A stretch of 37,656 nt of DNA. It comes from a virus. The notes beneath the pieces are model-generated. The model saw nothing but the letters and a program-made list of their open reading frames with translations. It made no database searches and was not told where the DNA came from. Position numbers and translations under genes: made by a program. Each line of letters begins with the position of its first letter. Position 1 is the stretch's first letter. Positions 6,198 to 37,656 of the stretch are shown here, one piece after another. Where the stretch lies: positions 1 to 37,656 of IMG/VR virus record IMGVR_UViG_3300031933_000229; one strand, written 5' to 3'.

Positions 6198-6529
6198 AAA
6201 ATCAATCCCTCCAATACCAGCTCACTGCCGTCGGGCAGATAGCTTCCATACAGGTTTAAAATCAATTGGCCAGCGGCAGTGATTTGCCCGGAAAGATCTG
6301 TCAAAGACACGCGAGGTTCCCAGGTGTCAAGCGCTTCAGCGGTAGCCGCATAGATCTCGATCAGGTTGGCCCGATTGAGCGGTGCATCAATGAGTTCAGG
6401 CAGGCGACTGCCGTAATCGCGGCGCATGACGCGAGTGCCAATACGGGTAGTCAAAATGTCACGGATAGACTGTTGTACATGCTGCTTGCCGGACAGCTCT
6501 GTTCCAGTGATTGCGTCCATACCTTTCAT
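6194..6529 (-). CDS. W: Baseplate protein W (gp25/lysozyme-like fold)
   Basis: This 111-aa protein belongs to the gpW/gp25 family, the conserved baseplate wedge core. It shows QHVQQSIRDILTTRIGTRVM (17-36), the family MRRDYGSRLPELID motif (35-49), and a beta-rich C-terminus ending in DGSELVLEGLIL. It overlaps gpD by four bases and gpJ by four bases, in a tightly coupled run. Despite the old 'lysozyme' label there is no enzymatic role. Confidence 0.92.
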   Translation of the reverse strand: MKGMDAITGTELSGKQHVQQSIRDILTTRIGTRVMRRDYGSRLPELIDAPLNRANLIEIYAATAEALDTWEPRVSLTDLSGQITAAGQLILNLYGSYLPDGSELVLEGLIL

Positions 6530-7500
6530 GGTGCCTCTCCGTCGATGGTGCAGCGGTAGCCCTGACCATTAATTGTATGGGTGACTGTCTTCATCAGCCA
6601 CGATCCGACAAGGCCGCTACGACCGGCTGTCACTTGAAGGTCTCCTTCAGCCATTAACAGGTTGTTTCCTGGCAGGGTGGCGCTGATGGTTGCCGCGCCT
6701 CTCTCAAAGGCAGCCAGCTTTGCACTTGCTGCAGATTTGGCCGTGGAGGCATCAGGATAGGCGTGGCGAATGACATAGACGGGCTGACCGCTGCCAATGG
6801 TTACAATAATGTCCTGGGCGCTTTCGATGTCATGCCAGCGAGCCTGGACACTGCCATATTTGCCTCGCTCGGCCATGGTGACATGCCACCTTGTCAGGTC
6901 GTTTTCTACTGCAGTGACAGGAGCGATGGTAATGCCACTGGCACTTTTCAGCTCACCACGAGGAACAAACAACAGGGTTCCATTGGCCGGTTTTGATACC
7001 GCGCCACGTTCTCTGGCCAAACGGGTCAGCAAGTGCAGATCTGATTCTTCGGTCTGGTCAATATGTTCCAGGAGCATATTGGTGAACGCCTCTGAAACTT
7101 TTGCTGTGTAGCCGTGCTCGGCGGCAATGGTCGTGACCAGATCGCCGATGGTGATCTGATCCCAGCTGCGCGATTTTGTTGCCTTGAATGCCTGACGCAT
7201 GTTGGCGGCTTTGGCACTTATGGTCAGCCTGTTCGGACGGCCAGAGATCTCCACTTCGTCAACCACATAAAGACCCATCTTGGCCAAGCCGGTTGAAACG
7301 TAGCCGATTGAGACGTCCAGCTCTGCGCCGGTGCGTGGCAACTCAATATGCGGTGCGCGATCGTCCAGGGTTATTTTGACCGTGTCGCTGTCCATGCCAG
7401 CCTGATCGGTGATATCCATTGACACAAACCGATCGCGGATCTGCGCGGTGACATCTGTGCTGTCGGCGAGTATTTTAAAATCTGGTGTCATCAGTCCCAC
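6526..7500 (-). CDS. D: Late control protein D / baseplate hub
   Basis: This 324-aa homologue of P2 gpD belongs to the T4 gp27-like hub family. Recognisable parts: PDFKILADSTDVTAQIRDRF at the N-terminus, SMDITDQAGMDSDTVKITLDD, and LHLLTRLARERGAVSKPANG in the middle. The hub receives the spike (gpV) and connects to the tail tube. It overlaps the X gene by ten bases and W by four. The P2 name 'late control' reflects its interaction with Ogr; no such regulator is seen here. Confidence 0.92.
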   Translation of the reverse strand: MGLMTPDFKILADSTDVTAQIRDRFVSMDITDQAGMDSDTVKITLDDRAPHIELPRTGAELDVSIGYVSTGLAKMGLYVVDEVEISGRPNRLTISAKAANMRQAFKATKSRSWDQITIGDLVTTIAAEHGYTAKVSEAFTNMLLEHIDQTEESDLHLLTRLARERGAVSKPANGTLLFVPRGELKSASGITIAPVTAVENDLTRWHVTMAERGKYGSVQARWHDIESAQDIIVTIGSGQPVYVIRHAYPDASTAKSAASAKLAAFERGAATISATLPGNNLLMAEGDLQVTAGRSGLVGSWLMKTVTHTINGQGYRCTIDGEAP

Positions 7501-8086: not shown

Positions 8087-10250
8087 AGAGATTTCCTCTC
8101 TGTCTGGCCTCTGCACGGCGCTGTTGCTCAGTCAAATGGTCAGTGACTATTTGAGCCACGGCCTGTTCGTCCATGCCGGGTGTGGCGTGGATGGTGATCG
8201 GCGCTGAGATGCTGGTTGATTGATTCACGGCCTGTTGCGCTGGCTGCGCACTGGCGATCTCGGCGGCCAAACCTGCAGGACTGACATTTGTGCGCTGGCG
8301 CTGAGACCGAGGTGACATGCTGGCACCGACTTTCACGCCAGAGTCAGAACGACTATCGCCTGGAAGCTGATCATCAACACCTGGTTGAGGATCGTCGTCA
8401 TCTCCGAACAGATCACCGATGAATCCAGCCAGTTTTTGTCCGGCTTTAAACAGCAAGCCGACAGGGCTACGCTCCCAGATCTTGGTCAAAAATCCCACGC
8501 CCTGACTGAACAGGCTCTTAATGCCGGACCACATGGAACTGAAGAACCCTGTAATCGGCTGCCAATAGTGAACAATCAGCGCCGCAGCCCCACCCAGTGC
8601 AGCGACAATAAGCCCGATCGGATTGGCCATCATTGCCGCGTTAAACGCCCACTGGGCTGCCGCTGAAGCCATCAACGCGCCTTTAAACAGGGTGAACCCG
8701 ACAACGGCTCCGGTGATAAACTTACTTACTGCTGGATATTTTTCGACAAATATTCCGATATGGCCAACCATGCCGGTAATCGGACGTAACACCGCATTTA
8801 CAGCCGGAAGCAAAGTCCCGGCAAAGGCCAGACCAAGTGTCCTGACATTGCTTGTGAAAAGAGTCAGTTGCCCGCGGCCATCGTCCATAAACTTCTGATA
8901 GCTGGCATCGACAATGCCCCTGGAACTGTCAGCGACATCCTTTTGTGCCTCTGATAGTTCGTGCAACTTTGGGCCAAGCAGTGACACCATCCTGATCCCT
9001 TCGTCACCGAAGACACGTTGCAGATCATCAATGGTGGATTGCTCCATGTTGTCAAAACCACCGATGGCGTCTGACATGGCCTGAAGCGTGGCAATGACAT
9101 CAAGGCCACCATCGAAACCACGCGACATATCGAAACCAAACTCTTCTGAAGCCTTGGACAAGTTACGGAAAGTTGCAGTCAGAGCCGTTCCCGCCATGCT
9201 CCCCTGTAGTCCGGCAGAGTTCAACGCACCGAGCAGTGTTGCACCCTGCTCCAGGTTGACGTTGTATTGCGCCAAGGCCGGGGTTGCCATTTTGAACGAT
9301 TCGCCAAGCTGTGAGAAATCCCGTAGCTGGAATTTGAACTGTGTTTTTGTCAGCACATCGCCAATGCGCTGCAGACGCTCAACGGTAGAGCCTTCAAGTG
9401 CCCCACCGAGATTATTAAAGGTGGTCGCCACAACTTCACCAACCTGCTCCGCAGCACCTTCAGTGATGGTTGAAACTTTTGAAACAATTTCAGATCCGGC
9501 ACGGGCCGTTGCCGCATCCAGCCCGGCAGAGTTCAGGGCATACTCGATATTGAGGAGATCGGTTTCATTGGCAAGGCTTTTACGGGCGTAGGCCAAGGCA
9601 TGACGGCGCGATTTCGCCAGTTCCTTGCCGACGTTTTCGGCGTTCATGACGGTGGATAATCGTGTCGCACTGCGGCCAAAATCCATGGCCTCGCCGACCA
9701 GACTACCGGCACCATAGAGCAGGCCTGCGGCACCGAGCATTTCACCACGCATATCCATGACACGGCCTTTGGCGGCATCACGTTGCGACATACGCTTTTT
9801 CAGGCGGGCGTACTTTGCTTCGGTTCTTTCAATTTCGCGGCCAAGGCGAGTGTATTCATGGGCAACATCTTTAACGCTGACACCAGAATTAACCATGGCC
9901 CGTTGGCTTTTCTGCAAATTGTCCCGCTGTTTTTCAAGAGCCGTTGACAGCTTTTCAGATTGCCGTTGAGCCACCTCAAGATCTTTTGCCAGGCCGCTGT
10001 TTTTAGAATCTTTTCGCAAAGCAGCCTTGACCCTCAAGACTTCTTTTTGCGCTTGGCTTAATTTCAACCGGGTTTTCTCAATGGCGACCTGGTCTTTTTC
10101 AAAACGCTCGATCAGCCCACGCTTACCGGACAAATCTTTTATTGCTGCGCCAAGCGTGTTAATCTGTTGTTTAGCGCCACTGATCGCACCAGGAAAACTG
10201 GCGGCCAGCGTGGCACCAACGACTACGCCTATTGATAAGGATTTGTCCAT
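8079..10250 (-). CDS. T: Tail tape measure protein (P2 gpT-like, TP901 core)
   Basis: This 723-aa protein sets tail length and travels through the tube. It has a coiled-coil N-terminal third (about 40-165), the conserved TP901 core around residues 190-480 (LSTVMNAENVGKELAKSRR, EYALNSAGLDAATARAGSE, VATTFNNLGGALEGS, ATALTATFRNLSKASEEFG-like text), and hydrophobic segments at about 520-565 (AVVGFTLFKGALMASAAAQW, NPIGLIVAALGGAAALIVHY). The C-terminus is low-complexity and ends in a QAVAQIVTDHL helix. A GGAAGA site precedes the ATG. The start codon region is overlapped on the other strand by the start of a small rightward gene (10249-10479). Confidence 0.93.
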   Translation of the reverse strand: MDKSLSIGVVVGATLAASFPGAISGAKQQINTLGAAIKDLSGKRGLIERFEKDQVAIEKTRLKLSQAQKEVLRVKAALRKDSKNSGLAKDLEVAQRQSEKLSTALEKQRDNLQKSQRAMVNSGVSVKDVAHEYTRLGREIERTEAKYARLKKRMSQRDAAKGRVMDMRGEMLGAAGLLYGAGSLVGEAMDFGRSATRLSTVMNAENVGKELAKSRRHALAYARKSLANETDLLNIEYALNSAGLDAATARAGSEIVSKVSTITEGAAEQVGEVVATTFNNLGGALEGSTVERLQRIGDVLTKTQFKFQLRDFSQLGESFKMATPALAQYNVNLEQGATLLGALNSAGLQGSMAGTALTATFRNLSKASEEFGFDMSRGFDGGLDVIATLQAMSDAIGGFDNMEQSTIDDLQRVFGDEGIRMVSLLGPKLHELSEAQKDVADSSRGIVDASYQKFMDDGRGQLTLFTSNVRTLGLAFAGTLLPAVNAVLRPITGMVGHIGIFVEKYPAVSKFITGAVVGFTLFKGALMASAAAQWAFNAAMMANPIGLIVAALGGAAALIVHYWQPITGFFSSMWSGIKSLFSQGVGFLTKIWERSPVGLLFKAGQKLAGFIGDLFGDDDDPQPGVDDQLPGDSRSDSGVKVGASMSPRSQRQRTNVSPAGLAAEIASAQPAQQAVNQSTSISAPITIHATPGMDEQAVAQIVTDHLTEQQRRAEARQRGNLYD

Positions 10251-28384: not shown

Positions 28385-29620
28385 TTAATATAATGCCTGG
28401 ATCACATCGCCGGTGACCCGTTCTTCGCCCATTTCATGGGCCAGATTGATTGCGTCAATAACCAGACTGTTAACGCGCAGCGGATGGGCAAGACTGACTT
28501 TGCGGCGGCTATCGTCCTGGGTGGTGAGCCGGCGGCTGATCATGTCGAAGGCATCATCGGTAAAGATGCTGTCGAGCTTGACGCCGAGGCGCTCAAACTT
28601 GACTTTCAGGTAACCTTTGAGGGAGCCGTTGAGGCCGTGAATCTCAGCGATCTGCACCCGCTGGATCACTTCGCGCATGTCGATGTTCTGGCTCTCAGTA
28701 AAGCGACTTTTCAACTCGGTTTGTGCAACCAGAATAATGCCGAGCATTTTCTTGTAGCCGTCTTCAAGCTCATGGAAGCGCTTGAGGTATTTGAGCACGG
28801 GCACGCTCAAATCGTGGGATTCTTCGAGGATGATGACGTGGCGAAAGCCGTTGCGGCTGCGATCCAGCAGCAGGCGTTGCACCTGGCGGCTTTTGGCTTC
28901 AAGGCGCATCTTGGGTTTTTCGTTGCTGATATCGTAGATAATGGCGTCGCACAGGCTCCCGGCCGTGACGCGCTCTTTGTCGATCACCTGCGGGTAGATC
29001 ACCAGTACATCGCCATCGCGTTTAAGCTGTTCGATCACCTTGCGGCGCATGACGCTTTTACCGCTGCCGACTTCACCGATAACAGCCAGAAACCCGCCGT
29101 GACGGGCGGCGTCGAGCATGGCGGCTTCAATGTAGCGGTGTTCATCGGACATGAAGATGTCGCTATCCTTCAAAATGTCGTCAATGAAGGGATGACGAAA
29201 GAGTTTGAACTGTTTACGTGCCCCGTCTGTAAGCATGCTGACCTCCTTGGGTGTAATATCTTCCGGGTTTGCTGTGGTGACTTTTGGTTGTGTGCGATTG
29301 CGCTGGTGCCAGTTGGCCGGGCCGATGCGGTGGAGATCTTCCTCGGCTTCGTCCCAGATCGCGGCGAGTTCCAGGCCACGTTCTGCCAGAAAGGCCATGG
29401 CTGCTGGTGATTCGCTGACCACCTTTTCTACGCGGAGCGGCCATTCCGGTTCACGCTTTGGCATGTAATCTCGGTTAAGCGAGAGATTGACGGCCGTTTT
29501 TGAAACGCCGGTCAAATTCGCCATCTCGCCATGACTCAGATTCATGACATTGAGCACCTGTTTCAATACCCGCTGTTTTTTCGGCATATCCCAGCCGTTT
29601 GGTCCGTCTGTTTTGGTCAT
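28385..29620 (-). CDS. MuB-type AAA+ ATPase (DNA transposition protein B)
   Basis: This 411-aa target-selection ATPase has an N-terminal helix-turn-helix (about 20-55: LSHGEMANLTGVSKTAVNLS), a linker, then the AAA+ core with Walker A GEVGSGKS (182-189) and Walker B HVIILEESHD (261-270), followed by LVAQTELKSRF as sensor 1. MuB binds DNA in an ATP-dependent way, captures target DNA for the transposase and gives target immunity. It follows the transposase gene by 21 bases, as in Mu. Confidence 0.93.
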   Translation of the reverse strand: MTKTDGPNGWDMPKKQRVLKQVLNVMNLSHGEMANLTGVSKTAVNLSLNRDYMPKREPEWPLRVEKVVSESPAAMAFLAERGLELAAIWDEAEEDLHRIGPANWHQRNRTQPKVTTANPEDITPKEVSMLTDGARKQFKLFRHPFIDDILKDSDIFMSDEHRYIEAAMLDAARHGGFLAVIGEVGSGKSVMRRKVIEQLKRDGDVLVIYPQVIDKERVTAGSLCDAIIYDISNEKPKMRLEAKSRQVQRLLLDRSRNGFRHVIILEESHDLSVPVLKYLKRFHELEDGYKKMLGIILVAQTELKSRFTESQNIDMREVIQRVQIAEIHGLNGSLKGYLKVKFERLGVKLDSIFTDDAFDMISRRLTTQDDSRRKVSLAHPLRVNSLVIDAINLAHEMGEERVTGDVIQALY

Positions 29621-29641: not shown

Positions 29642-31342
29642 TTACAGTGCCTGGGCCTGGTCGGCGGCCACCTCACGCCAATCCTGATTGGCGCAGATCG
29701 CCTTGATCACTTCCTCGGCCCGGTTGACTTCGATGCTGTTTCCAAAGGTTTGTTTAAGCTCACGGTTTAATGCCGGTTCGACATGGTCGATTTTCTGCCG
29801 CAGTTCATTGATAAACACCATGATCGGCTTGTATTGCGGCACGTGATCACGGGGAATTTCCAGCGGTGTGCCGCGTTTGGGAATACTGGCCGTGTTGCCG
29901 AACTTCTCGGCCTGATAACCGAACACTTTCAACGTGCCGCCGAAGGGCACATCGTTCTTCTTGCGCTCTTCGCCGTAAGCCAGATTTTCCGCCTTTTTGA
30001 CCGCCTTTTGGGTGGCTGTTTCTGGTTGCGCCTTGAACTCCTGGCCGATAATGGCGCTGTTGGCACTGAACCCGCCCGCCAGCGTGCCGATGGGTTCCAC
30101 CACATAGGCTTGTTTGTCATAAGTAACGGTGATTTCCGCTTTTTCCTTCCAGGTATAAGGCCGCAAAGAAACCGTCACTGTCATACCTGGACGCAAACCT
30201 TCGATGTGCTTGAGGTGGTACTCGTTATTGCGTAAAGGAATGGTGAAATCGCGCCGCACGGTGCGGGTCACTTCAGGCTCAGCGTAGATATCCTGCAAGA
30301 TTTTCTCTTCGGGCAAAATGCGTAGCTGTGGCTGAGTAATGGTTTGCCAAAGCGCACAGCGGCTCGTACGGCTACGGCGTAGCTTGCGGCTGTTGTTGAA
30401 ATGCACCAGCCAGTCAATGCACCATTCGTTGAGCTGCTCAACCGTGTCGGCCGGACAAAAGCGCAGCCGCGATTCAAATTGCCGTTCCACAATGTTCTGC
30501 ACCACCTCGGCGCTACCTTGTCGGCGCGGGTTATGCGGCAAGGCTTCGGGGGTTTTGATGTCCAACGCCCGTAAAAACGCCTGCATGGCTTTGGCGGTAT
30601 GAGCGGCACCGGCATCCATCAGCACATAAAACGGCACCCCTTGAAACGGCAGCATATCGTGATGCCCGCCACGCCAGGCACTGGTGAGAAAGTCATGCAC
30701 CGTGTCCCTGTTTTCGCCGCCGATGTTGTAATACTTCACAAACAGGAAATGGCTGAAATGATCTACCAACACGTAGCGAATCAGGCGGGTTTTGATCTTG
30801 GCGAAGTTGTCGGGCTTATTTTTGTAAAAGTCCCGCTCATCCATGATTTGCATCCCTTTTTTACCCTGAAGGTAATACTGAATGCAGACCGAAGCATCGA
30901 ACACATGGCAGTAGTTCGGGTGCAGGGAGGCCATGCGGATGTGTGGCGTTTCAGCGTCCAGATCGGCGGCACTTACGCCCCGTTCGCGCAGGATGGCTTG
31001 CAGACGGGAAACGGAAATCTGCCCAGGTTCAATCACGCCGTTGATAATGGCGACTTCCAGAGCGGTTTCCACCGACATGATCGTACCTTTGACCTGCCTG
31101 GAACTCTCCTTGATCAAAGACACCACATGGAGGATCTGCTCCTCGGTCAAACCAGACTTGAGGGTTCCCTTGTCGCTGCGGCGCTTGCGCTCAGGGGCAT
31201 ATCCGCGACTTTCGGCGAGCTTGCCCAAGGTGGAGCGGCATTTTCCCGTCAGTTCGCTGTATTTGTCCCAGATGGCTTTCTTTTCGCCGTGACCGGCCTG
31301 ATTTAGCTCTTCAACCATCCTGTCCTCCCATCCCGCAGCCAT
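29642..31342 (-). CDS. MuA-type DDE transposase
   Basis: This 566-aa transposase carries out replicative transposition at the prophage ends. It has an N-terminal HTH-rich part (about 1-135), then the RNase-H-like DDE core: D149 in HVFDAS, D243 in VLMDAGAAHTAK, and E279 or E285 in the GSAEVVQNIVERQFE motif. After a beta-barrel-like section (RPGMTVTVSLRPYTWKEKAE) comes a charged C-terminal region, which in Mu contacts MuB and ClpX. Mu A is 663 aa, so this version is shorter mainly at the N-terminus. Confidence 0.93.
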   Translation of the reverse strand: MAAGWEDRMVEELNQAGHGEKKAIWDKYSELTGKCRSTLGKLAESRGYAPERKRRSDKGTLKSGLTEEQILHVVSLIKESSRQVKGTIMSVETALEVAIINGVIEPGQISVSRLQAILRERGVSAADLDAETPHIRMASLHPNYCHVFDASVCIQYYLQGKKGMQIMDERDFYKNKPDNFAKIKTRLIRYVLVDHFSHFLFVKYYNIGGENRDTVHDFLTSAWRGGHHDMLPFQGVPFYVLMDAGAAHTAKAMQAFLRALDIKTPEALPHNPRRQGSAEVVQNIVERQFESRLRFCPADTVEQLNEWCIDWLVHFNNSRKLRRSRTSRCALWQTITQPQLRILPEEKILQDIYAEPEVTRTVRRDFTIPLRNNEYHLKHIEGLRPGMTVTVSLRPYTWKEKAEITVTYDKQAYVVEPIGTLAGGFSANSAIIGQEFKAQPETATQKAVKKAENLAYGEERKKNDVPFGGTLKVFGYQAEKFGNTASIPKRGTPLEIPRDHVPQYKPIMVFINELRQKIDHVEPALNRELKQTFGNSIEVNRAEEVIKAICANQDWREVAADQAQAL

Positions 31343-35522: not shown

Positions 35523-35885
35523 ATGTCTATAGGCCTGCGAATAACACAAGCTATTAAAATAATTGGAATTAATCGCGCAGAGCTTTCGCGCAGGTCAGGC
35601 GTTCCAGAAGGTCAATTGTCTAAAATCGTTAATGGCCACACTAAAAGCCCAAGAGGTGAGACTTTATCTAAAATCGCAAAAGCACTTGAAGTGCAAGAGG
35701 GGTGGCTAATTACAGGGGAAGGTGAAAGGGAGATCAGTAGTAAACAAGAGCCTACAAGCCTTCATCCAAGGGCTGCTGCCCTATTGGACAACTGGGAGCA
35801 TCTAAGCGAAGAAGACAAGGCAGCTCTTGAGCGTATGGCTTTTGCGTTGGCGCAATCGGATAAAAAAATAAACAAGGCTGAATAA
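35523..35885 (+). CDS. Phage repressor (cI/XRE-type)
   Basis: This 120-aa protein starts at ATG 35523 with GGAAAG upstream. It has an N-terminal XRE HTH: LRITQAIKIIGINRAELSRR, SGVPEGQLSKIVNGHTKSPR and LSKIAKALEVQEGWLITGEG (about 5-64), then an acidic helical tail (LDNWEHLSEEDKAALERMAF). It lacks the S24 protease domain of LexA/CI repressors, so it is unlikely to be cleaved by RecA. It is the first gene of the rightward lysogeny operon and should keep the leftward early promoter off. Confidence 0.88.
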   Translation: MSIGLRITQAIKIIGINRAELSRRSGVPEGQLSKIVNGHTKSPRGETLSKIAKALEVQEGWLITGEGEREISSKQEPTSLHPRAAALLDNWEHLSEEDKAALERMAFALAQSDKKINKAE

Positions 35886-35898
35886 AAGGAGAAGAGAT

Positions 35899-36339
35899 AT
35901 GGCACTGAGTCGCGAACAAATATTTGAAGGAGCAACCGGCAACCAGTTTATTGCAATAGATAAACTGCCCGACTCTCAAGGTCCCTTAAATCGCTTCAAA
36001 GTGCTGGAAATCAAAATAACTAAAGGGATGTCTCCAGATCAACTGATCAATGCGTTAATTACAGCCCTGGGTGAAAAGCCCAAGTATGGAGGTGGGGAAA
36101 TCAGGGCGAGGCAACTATCCTCCTTACTTAAAAGCGCAACCAAGAATGTCGGCAAGCTGATTTTTATTATCCAGAGCGCCCATCTACTACCGCCACGCAC
36201 TATAACAATAATGAAATCTCTTGGTGAAATAACTGAAATGGCTGGATTCGTATTCTGTGGCGAAATGAATAAATTTAAAAAGAAGCTGGAAAAAATTGAC
36301 GGAATGAATCTTCGAACAGAGGTTATCTCTAAGGCGTAA
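35899..36339 (+). CDS. MuB-like pseudo-ATPase in the lysogeny operon
   Basis: This 146-aa protein starts after a GGAG site 14 bases downstream of the repressor. The stretch VGKLIFIIQSAHLLPPRTIT then IMKSLGEITEMAGFVFCGEM (about 92-131) looks like the Walker B to sensor 1 part of MuB-type AAA+ ATPases (compare HVIILEESHDLSVPVLKYLK in the phage's own MuB). The acidic Walker B residues are replaced by Q-S, and no Walker A is present. The N-terminal ~90 residues are not recognised. It may be a non-catalytic partner or inhibitor of the MuB protein. Similarity is judged by eye only. Confidence 0.6.
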   Translation: MALSREQIFEGATGNQFIAIDKLPDSQGPLNRFKVLEIKITKGMSPDQLINALITALGEKPKYGGGEIRARQLSSLLKSATKNVGKLIFIIQSAHLLPPRTITIMKSLGEITEMAGFVFCGEMNKFKKKLEKIDGMNLRTEVISKA

Positions 36340-36403: not shown

Positions 36404-37114
36404 ATGGATATGGTTCATTTTCAGTTTGAAGGGTTGGCGTTAAAAGAATCCTGCTGGTTTGACGGGAAGCCATATTTTACCGCACGGGCGATCGGGGAAC
36501 TGCTTGAATATAAAGACCCCGTTCGAGACATAAATCATATCATCAGACGCAATCCACACATCAACGACCCGAGGTGGTCAGTAGTGGGTAAACTGCCCAC
36601 TACTGACGGAAAAAAATACAACACTCGGATATATGATCCGGTCGGCCTACAACTTATCATTTTTGAATCTCGGCAACCTAAAGCCGTTCAATTTAAAATT
36701 GCCGTTGCCAACCTGGTCTATGACTATATGAACGGCAAACTCAAACCTTCAAAGTGGGCACAAAAAGGCGACCTGCTTTCAGCCGCCAGGCAAATCCTCT
36801 CTTTACCGCAAGGCCGCAAACGGGCCGCCCTGGTAAAAGACCTGGCAAAACAGGAAGGTTGCAACATCTCAACCGCCTACCGCCGAATCGAATTAGCCAC
36901 CGGACAACGCCTGAAAACAACCAAAGGCCAGCCGATCCACCGCAGTGACAAAGGCTCTTCAAAATATCCCGACGAAAAACAAGCCGTCAGGGTTTATCTA
37001 CAAAAAAATCCCGACTCACAAAAAGCCGAGATCAAGAGAGAACTAAACCTCAAAGTTTCAACCAGCACAGTGAAAAGATGGATCCGAGAAATCAAAAAAA
37101 CTCAGGATCAATAA
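36404..37114 (+). CDS. Bro-N domain protein with C-terminal HTH (antirepressor-like)
   Basis: This 236-aa protein starts after GGAGG. It has a Bro-N domain at about 5-110: FQFEGLALKESCWFDGKPYF, TARAIGELLEYKDPVRDINH and the IYDPVGLQLIIFESRQPKAV motif, as in phage antirepressors. A second part contains two HTH-like elements: GCNISTAYRRIELATGQRLK (about 155-174) and LKVSTSTVKRWIREIKKTQ (at the end). Bro-N proteins act as antirepressors or transcription regulators. Co-direction with the repressor gene suggests expression in the lysogen. It is the last phage gene before the left end. Confidence 0.8.
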   Translation: MDMVHFQFEGLALKESCWFDGKPYFTARAIGELLEYKDPVRDINHIIRRNPHINDPRWSVVGKLPTTDGKKYNTRIYDPVGLQLIIFESRQPKAVQFKIAVANLVYDYMNGKLKPSKWAQKGDLLSAARQILSLPQGRKRAALVKDLAKQEGCNISTAYRRIELATGQRLKTTKGQPIHRSDKGSSKYPDEKQAVRVYLQKNPDSQKAEIKRELNLKVSTSTVKRWIREIKKTQDQ

Positions 37115-37157: not shown

Positions 37158-37218
37158 TCAAGGCAAACGTAAAGCAACGTAAATCACAATTATCGTAATG
37201 TTGGGGTTTTGAATATCA
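37158..37218 (-). other. Prophage left end with possible transposase sites
   Basis: The sequence from the end inward (leftward strand) starts TGATATTCAAAACCCCAA, with ACGATAATT at 37196-37188, about 23 bases in. That is similar to Mu L1, where ACGAAAA begins 21 bases from the end. Further in are two TTTACGTT repeats (about 37167-37182). The boundary at 37218 is chosen because the reading frame of a host ATPase gene breaks there. The region 37115-37157 shows no other feature. Confidence 0.5.
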
Positions 37219-37304
37219 TAGGCCCCCTCACCATCGACGTCAAGCAGACGACCACACAAGGTTGTGGTTCCAAGATCCAGCGCCAAAAACAGGGATGACG
37301 ACAT
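37158..37304 (-). pseudogene. RACo-like ASKHA-domain gene truncated by the prophage
   Basis: The ATG at 37304 follows a GGGAG site and lies 30 bases after the alr stop. The first ~28 residues (SSSLFLALDLGTTTLCGRLL then DVDGEG) are the phosphate-1 loop of an ASKHA-fold ATPase and match the start of DUF4445/RACo-type corrinoid protein reactivators, which are several hundred residues long. At 37218 the frame enters phage sequence and stops at 37158. Only 37219-37304 is host-derived. The rest of the gene is not on the other side of the prophage. Confidence 0.6.
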
Positions 37305-37334
37305 GCTCAACTCCCGCTGCAGAAGGATAGAACG

Positions 37335-37656
37335 TTAAGGCAGTTGGGGCAAATAGTGACGAGGCACGCGCTTACTGATCTGGCAGAAGACCTCATAGGA
37401 GATTGTACCAATTTTTTCCGCCCATTGTTCAGCCAGCACCCATTGGTCGCCATCGCAGCCGAGCAGTGTCACGCTATCCCCACACTGCACATCCGGAACA
37501 TCGGTCACATCGAGCAACGTCCAGTCCATGCAGACGGTTCCAGCAACCGGGGCCTGGCAACCGCGCACCAGAGTGGTACCGCAATTTGACAGCAAGCGAT
37601 TATACCCGTCAGCATACCCGACCGGAATGGCGGCAATCAGCGATGGACGCTGCGCC
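37335..37656 (-). CDS. alr: Alanine racemase, C-terminal part (runs off the window)
   Basis: The visible 106 codons show the C-terminal domain of the PLP enzyme that interconverts L- and D-alanine for cell-wall synthesis. [20 protein letters not shown] is followed by [20 protein letters not shown] (the conserved GRVCMD-type motif with catalytic-loop methionine-aspartate), [12 protein letters not shown] and the final [14 protein letters not shown] motif. The N-terminal part with the PLP lysine lies beyond the window. It is a chromosomal host gene upstream of the disrupted RACo-like gene, probably in one operon with it. Confidence 0.93.

Follow-up and report, generated by a model that had tools for sequence, protein, structure and literature searches.

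In a 37,656-nt stretch of viral DNA (the window: positions 1 to 37,656 of IMG/VR record IMGVR_UViG_3300031933_000229), a small gene directly downstream of the phage repressor encodes what is, as judged from its sequence, a MuB-derived protein that has kept the core from the first strand to the arginine preceding the lid, but from which the entire ATP site has disappeared, along with the lid and any N-terminal HTH. We refer to it as pseudo-MuB (Table 1). In our reading, which we hold to have about an even prospect of being right, it is expressed in lysogeny and acts on MuB as a dominant-negative partner, so that transposition dependent on MuB is blocked, whether that of its own phage or that of incoming relatives.

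The window phage is Mu-like and of the B3 kind, and in tblastn searches its transposase matched 58 phage records, 51 of which were Pseudomonas phages, including B3. Only 13 nt separate the stop codon of the repressor gene from the start of the pseudo-MuB gene, and a Bro-N/antirepressor-like gene follows 64 nt beyond the 3' end of the latter, possibly as the third gene of the same unit. From this gene order we infer that pseudo-MuB is expressed from the lysogeny operon. The gene for the Bro-N plus HTH protein lies at the phage end, on the same strand as the repressor gene, and its product shows a weak PADLOC match to mad1 (E 6e-4, confined to residues 144-163). The sequence from about 37160 to 37656 looks like host DNA, which would place the phage end near 37160: it contains an ORF whose start is cut at about 37160 and which resembles ASKHA/corrinoid-activator proteins, and an alanine racemase-like end.

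Table 1. Features discussed in the text (coordinates are those of the window unless another record is named)
Feature	Position	Strand	Remarks
Transposition genes			
Full MuB of the window phage, HTH + AAA_22	28385..29620	-	phrog_296 DNA transposition protein, E 4.3e-50; AAA_22, E 4.9e-18
Transposase, MuA-like, B3 kind	29642..31342	-	tblastn to phage transposases; NCBIfam transposase models
Repressor side			
Repressor gene, XRE/Cro-C1 HTH	35523..35885	+	120 aa from ATG; Pfam HTH_3, E 1.9e-10; PHROG transcriptional regulators
Shine-Dalgarno sequence of pseudo-MuB gene, AAGGAG	35886..35891	+	7 nt upstream of ATG; from sequence
Pseudo-MuB gene (MuB look-alike)	35899..36339	+	146 aa; ATG start; without ATP site
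Bro-N/antirepressor-like protein, C-terminal HTH	36404..37114	+	Pfam Bro-N, E 8e-8; phrog_5060 anti-repressor, E 5.8e-11
Within pseudo-MuB			
LPDSQGP, residues 23-29	35965..35985	+	LP-x-S-x-x-P in common with the L063 copy, at the place of the MuB P-loop; from alignments
E67-R71-Q72 motif (E...RQL, residues 67-73)	36097..36117	+	In MuBs, E67 26/27, R71 27/27, Q72 26/27
Q92-S93, replacing the Walker B acidic pair	36172..36177	+	Two acids in 50/50 MuB and AAA_22 domains
K106-E110 codons, MuB-typical K and E	36214..36228	+	MuBs K 27/27, E 26/27; other AAA_22 R 23/23, N 23/23
E122, replacing the sensor-1 Q	36262..36264	+	Q in 50/50 compared ATPases
R139 (LRT), conserved arginine before the lid, kept	36313..36315	+	R in 16/16 MuBs and 50/50 ATPases
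Other records			
L063 repressor, CI-type	7328-7831 of L063		40 nt upstream of L063 pseudo-MuB
L063 pseudo-MuB	7872-8330 of L063	+	152 aa; full-length homologue of window pseudo-MuB
Separate HTH ORFs of L027-type phages	L027 2212-2634; L068 6686-7108; L070 8609-9103		B3-type MuB HTH profile

A second copy of the gene came to light in a distant Mu-like phage (L063, IMG/VR record IMGVR_UViG_2579778963_000002), through a scan with an alignment (A3) covering Walker B and the residues that lead up to it. The two proteins align over their whole length of about 150 residues with 30% identity (84.7 bits), a better conservation than that between the transposases (24% identity, 60.8 bits) or the full MuBs (26%, 49.7 bits) of the same two phages, while their repressors are alike only in the HTH (21.9 bits). 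Both genes have ribosome sites, and in L063, too, the full MuB gene is on the strand opposite to that of pseudo-MuB. Since the second full-length copy follows a different repressor and has likewise lost its ATP site, this is a conserved gene and not a decaying fragment; two colinear, intact copies in the same place behind unlike repressors argue for a retained function that would be tied to lysogeny.

The kinship with MuB is well supported by several sequence comparisons, and is closer than that with other AAA_22 ATPases. Against the Pfam AAA_22 profile (PF13401), the window protein scores 21.4 bits (E 3.2e-4) and the L063 protein 24.5 bits, both below the curated cut-off of 27; the match of the window protein starts at profile position 33, so that the P-loop part is not covered. 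BLASTP links it to the resident MuB over residues 8-145 (E 0.002). A profile of ten MuBs, built without the window protein, gave that protein 30.9 bits, compared with at most 8.8 bits among the 1,788 of 2,000 shuffled controls for which a score was reported, and with -1.6 when the protein was reversed; among 8,520 ORFs of 71 records (in which the window protein is counted also as the re-fetched locus L001) the same profile had no matches at E <= 0.01 other than full ATPases and the two pseudo-MuBs. When profiles of 27 MuB domains and of 23 other AAA_22 ATPases were compared, the window protein scored 39.4 and 10.8 bits, respectively, and the L063 protein 38.5 and 25.4. A profile made from the two pseudo-MuBs alone found the ten-MuB profile with a probability of 97.8 (E 1.2e-12, the E-value being that of a single comparison). 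Moreover, both proteins have the MuB letter at all five MuB-diagnostic positions (E67, R71, Q72, K106 and E110), the residue counts being taken over the 50 domains (27 MuB and 23 other AAA_22) with the divergent MuBs of L016 and L022 left out. The relation to MuB that the earlier note had proposed for this product is thus borne out by the profile comparison and by these residues.

In a tree of 54 domains, from which re-fetched duplicate loci were left out, the window and L063 pseudo-MuBs are sisters (100/100) on long branches, beside the MuBs of L027-type phages (94/89). The tree does not settle their affinity: approximately unbiased (AU) tests rejected neither a grouping with B3-type MuBs (p-AU 0.126) nor one with other AAA_22 ATPases (p-AU 0.081). 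The earlier description of the protein as a pseudo-ATPase mimicking MuB is supported by the profiles, by the MuB-typical residues and by the presence of the gene at the same place in a second phage. A recent duplication of the resident MuB is out, because that MuB scores the window pseudo-MuB at 10.3 bits, as against up to 33.4 bits for MuBs of other phages, and because the protein pairs with the L063 copy at 100/100. (Similarly, L063 pseudo-MuB obtains 23.4 bits with the MuB of its phage, as against a maximum of 27.4 with others.) Nor is this a split MuB in which the repressor would represent the HTH half and pseudo-MuB the ATPase half, an idea that we reject for the window because the N-terminal HTH profile misses the repressor: with a profile of the N-terminal regions of nine MuBs, neither the window nor the L063 repressor was listed at E <= 5. 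The L063 repressor has a feature of its own, a P-loop-like GKSGLGKT after the HTH that gives a weak match to AAA_22 positions 6-60 (E 0.023), which is the part missing from the neighbouring L063 pseudo-MuB; such a motif occurs in five of 1,088 ORFs of 120-220 aa, and is absent from the window repressor.

The loss of the ATP site is thorough. The earlier note had drawn a parallel with the Walker B/sensor 1 stretch of MuB, with Q-S in place of the acidic pair and no Walker A, and this was confirmed: the acids are invariable in the compared domains, and no GxxxxGK[ST] motif occurs in the window protein. Four P-loop columns (G, G, G and K) that are invariant in 16 of 16 MuBs are occupied by K, D, Q and G in the window protein and by Q, E, E and H in that of L063, in which the Walker B pair has become H-D and the sensor-1 glutamine D. 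The N-terminal HTH of B3-type MuBs is missing, as is the lid, the window protein stopping immediately behind LRT. The conserved arginine that precedes the lid, on the other hand, is present in both pseudo-MuBs; its pairing as R139 rests on later alignments, because an earlier one, made without the second copy, had given the C-terminal end another pairing. As R139 lies just ahead of the lid, we assume that it could serve as a finger acting in trans.

AlphaFold2, given the ten-MuB alignment, produced a model of the window protein with pLDDT 77.6 and pTM 0.71, for which Foldseek placed the TnsC of ShCAST first (E 1.7e-4) and MuB sixth and eleventh, and VIA-align gave Z-scores of 15.8 for TnsC (7plh), 15.5 for MuB (8xvc), 13.4 for a second TnsC and 13.3 for Cdc6 from an archaeon. 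Modelling without the MuB alignment fails (pLDDT 38.9). Sequence searches of the PDB with the protein or with profiles returned no MuB or TnsC entry (in one search, among the best 60 of 319 rows), and it was only by comparing structures that TnsC and MuB were matched; as the alignment behind the model consists of MuBs, the fold match is not independent of the sequence argument. Of the two outcomes that would have told against the earlier note, a fold unrelated to AAA+ and profiles without a link to MuB, neither came about: the profiles lead to MuB, and the predicted fold is AAA+, with TnsC and MuB nearest, in a model that depends on the MuB alignment.

No third copy was found in the phage, plasmid, viral contig and genome sets searched. 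Tblastn found none in phages, and each of two such searches of plasmids returned a single weak, off-target row. With the window protein as query, viral contigs and genome contigs gave no match, and 277 genomes of one class gave two, both full MuBs. Viral contigs yielded four loci with alignment A1, all of them full ATPases; eight with A3, including L063 with its second copy; the L063 record again, and nothing else, with A4; and no match with A6. In 395 genomes of one phylum, A4 found no match at E <= 1e-8, an empty result that carries no weight. A1 matched at least 301 of 395 genomes, the matches listed being mostly other AAA_22 ATPases. The one match of A4 in 46 genomes of another class was a 416-aa frame, which is a full MuB (L034).

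How might a MuB without an ATP site act? AAA+ transposition helpers are reported to assemble through a bipartite site made of the arginine finger of one subunit and the Walker motifs of its neighbour (PMC11208146), and MuB is described as forming ATP-dependent filaments and capturing target DNA (PMC7350765). A MuB core that has the arginine and lacks the ATP site could have a single docking face, and for this reason we favour the dominant-negative partner. The functions proposed in the earlier note (poisoning of MuB filaments, restraint of transposition, immunity against related phages) would fit this anatomy. Pseudo-MuB would probably be made in the lysogen together with the repressor; its R139 face would engage the ATP site of a genuine MuB subunit. 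Having no such site to offer in return, pseudo-MuB would either cap the MuB filament or cause it to hydrolyse ATP and disassemble. With the filament lost, target capture and activation of the transposase would fail. We infer such binding and inhibition, as well as the identity of the MuB concerned, and propose that the resident full MuB is the target or a relative of it. Pseudo-MuB could then be a second lock behind the repressor, directed either against leaky MuB of its own phage or against MuB of incoming heteroimmune Mu-like phages. That neither pseudo-MuB is closest to its own MuB leans, weakly, towards the incoming phages. A more far-reaching version, which we put forward tentatively and think distinctly less probable than the partner role as such, is that this constitutes a second, protein-level immunity at the transposition step: the ATP-blind MuB of the lysogen would cap or dissolve the MuB filaments both of incoming heteroimmune Mu-like phages and of a leaky prophage, so that superinfecting DNA would be injected but unable to transpose.

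Several other explanations have to be weighed against the dominant-negative partner. The foremost of them, which we nevertheless consider unlikely, is that pseudo-MuB has kept the MuB surface that receives the C-terminal tail of the transposase, and ties up the transposase (proposed here as an alternative target) while staying out of filaments. The C-terminal end of the transposase does bind the helper, as a hook of TnsB on TnsC, and the C terminus of MuA acts on MuB, but the same study also reports that the transposase-contacting residues are not conserved between MuB and TnsC (PMC9371665); the retained E67, R71, Q72, K106 and E110 could form a partner surface. Also unlikely, and next in our ranking, is that pseudo-MuB has left MuB biology and tunes lysogeny by binding the repressor or its operators. 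That it comes straight behind the repressor in each of the two phages would fit; yet the two repressors share no more than the weak HTH match, whereas pseudo-MuB is conserved over its whole length. Third in rank and again unlikely would be an accessory gene for exclusion or defence that is aimed at neither MuB nor the transposase but at something else, such as an AAA+ protein of host or foreign origin. The low G+C of the repressor-side genes (0.42-0.46, against 0.534 for the whole phage) is compatible with this, as are the variability of the slot after the repressor (taken by another gene in L010, and followed by an extra two-gene unit in L063) and the accessory and exclusion genes described for the corresponding region of B3-like phages (PMC9936078); it sits less well with the retention of MuB-specific residues, with the presence of both copies in MuB-carrying phages, and with the result that PADLOC found no match for either copy.

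We regard as improbable a helpful co-subunit that, as a one-sided cap and not an inhibitor, would determine, during the lytic phase, how long MuB filaments grow or which target is chosen. The docking logic would be identical to that of the dominant-negative model, but the pseudo-MuB gene shares its strand with the repressor and is separate from the early operon with MuB and the transposase. Least probable of all is a functionless, decaying remnant of a MuB gene: truncation at both ends relative to MuB would agree with this, against which are the intact, colinear reading frames of the same length in two distant phages, their ribosome sites, and the shared motif that replaces the P-loop.

In L010 the slot directly after the repressor is occupied by the gene for a protein of about 190 aa (6241-6813, minus strand), also present in L004 (2960-3544, minus strand; 39% identity). 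In L063, pseudo-MuB is followed (8381-9819) by genes for a 311-aa phrog_26543 protein and a membrane protein; the same two-gene unit, with 29% and 48% identity, occurs in L004 (263-1690, minus strand), and is a candidate exclusion or defence unit. The full MuB of the window is 98.8% identical to that of L003 (687-1913) in the AAA and lid part (two differences in 176 core residues), and only 32% identical in the N-terminal HTH part, a difference that, on alignment, is a domain swap. L027-type phages have a MuB without HTH, and just after it a separate ORF that matches the HTH profile of B3-type MuBs (E 3.9e-12), so by these matches the same domain is fused in B3-type MuBs and has its own gene in L027-type phages.

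Among known proteins, pseudo-MuB resembles the MuB/TnsC ATPases (AAA_22 region; phrog_296, phrog_2630) in core sequence and, in the model built on a MuB alignment, in predicted fold, and the phages that encode it also carry a full MuB. It differs from them in having no Walker A, Walker B acids, sensor-1 glutamine, lid or HTH, and in being encoded after the repressor, outside the early operon. The Tn5 inhibitor Inh is a shortened, inactive transposition protein with a dominant-negative effect, made from the transposase gene itself; pseudo-MuB, by contrast, has a gene of its own, which has diverged and whose kinship is with the ATPase helper. By way of working alone, it may be likened to ORF104 of phage 77, a small phage protein proposed to stop the self-assembly of the AAA+ helicase loader DnaI; this one is directed against a host loader, from which it is not described as derived in the available part of the paper (PMC4887207). 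The position next to the repressor, at 13 nt in the window and 40 nt in L063, is like that of superinfection exclusion genes of transposable phages. In the B3-like phage Fc02, e4 is likewise directly after the repressor, e4 and olg1 lie in the region transcribed in the lysogen, and e4 is absent from some relatives; olg1, which is linked to a DEDDh exonuclease domain, and gene 10 bring about exclusion on expression, and in the accessible part of that report a relation to MuB is mentioned for none of the three (PMC9936078).

In the literature searched, which did not include most subscription journals, we found no account of a MuB relative that is inactive and encoded next to a repressor.

Control in Mu-like phages has been described mainly in terms of a DNA-binding repressor, and target choice in terms of MuB-based immunity. 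A conserved pseudo-MuB, encoded by its own gene beside the repressor, would bring in a further level of control, at the AAA+ helper itself. It would also provide a natural probe of the assembly of MuB and TnsC filaments and, more speculatively, a docking, ATP-blind subunit could be a starting point for the study of inhibitors of TnsC-like proteins in CRISPR-associated transposons.
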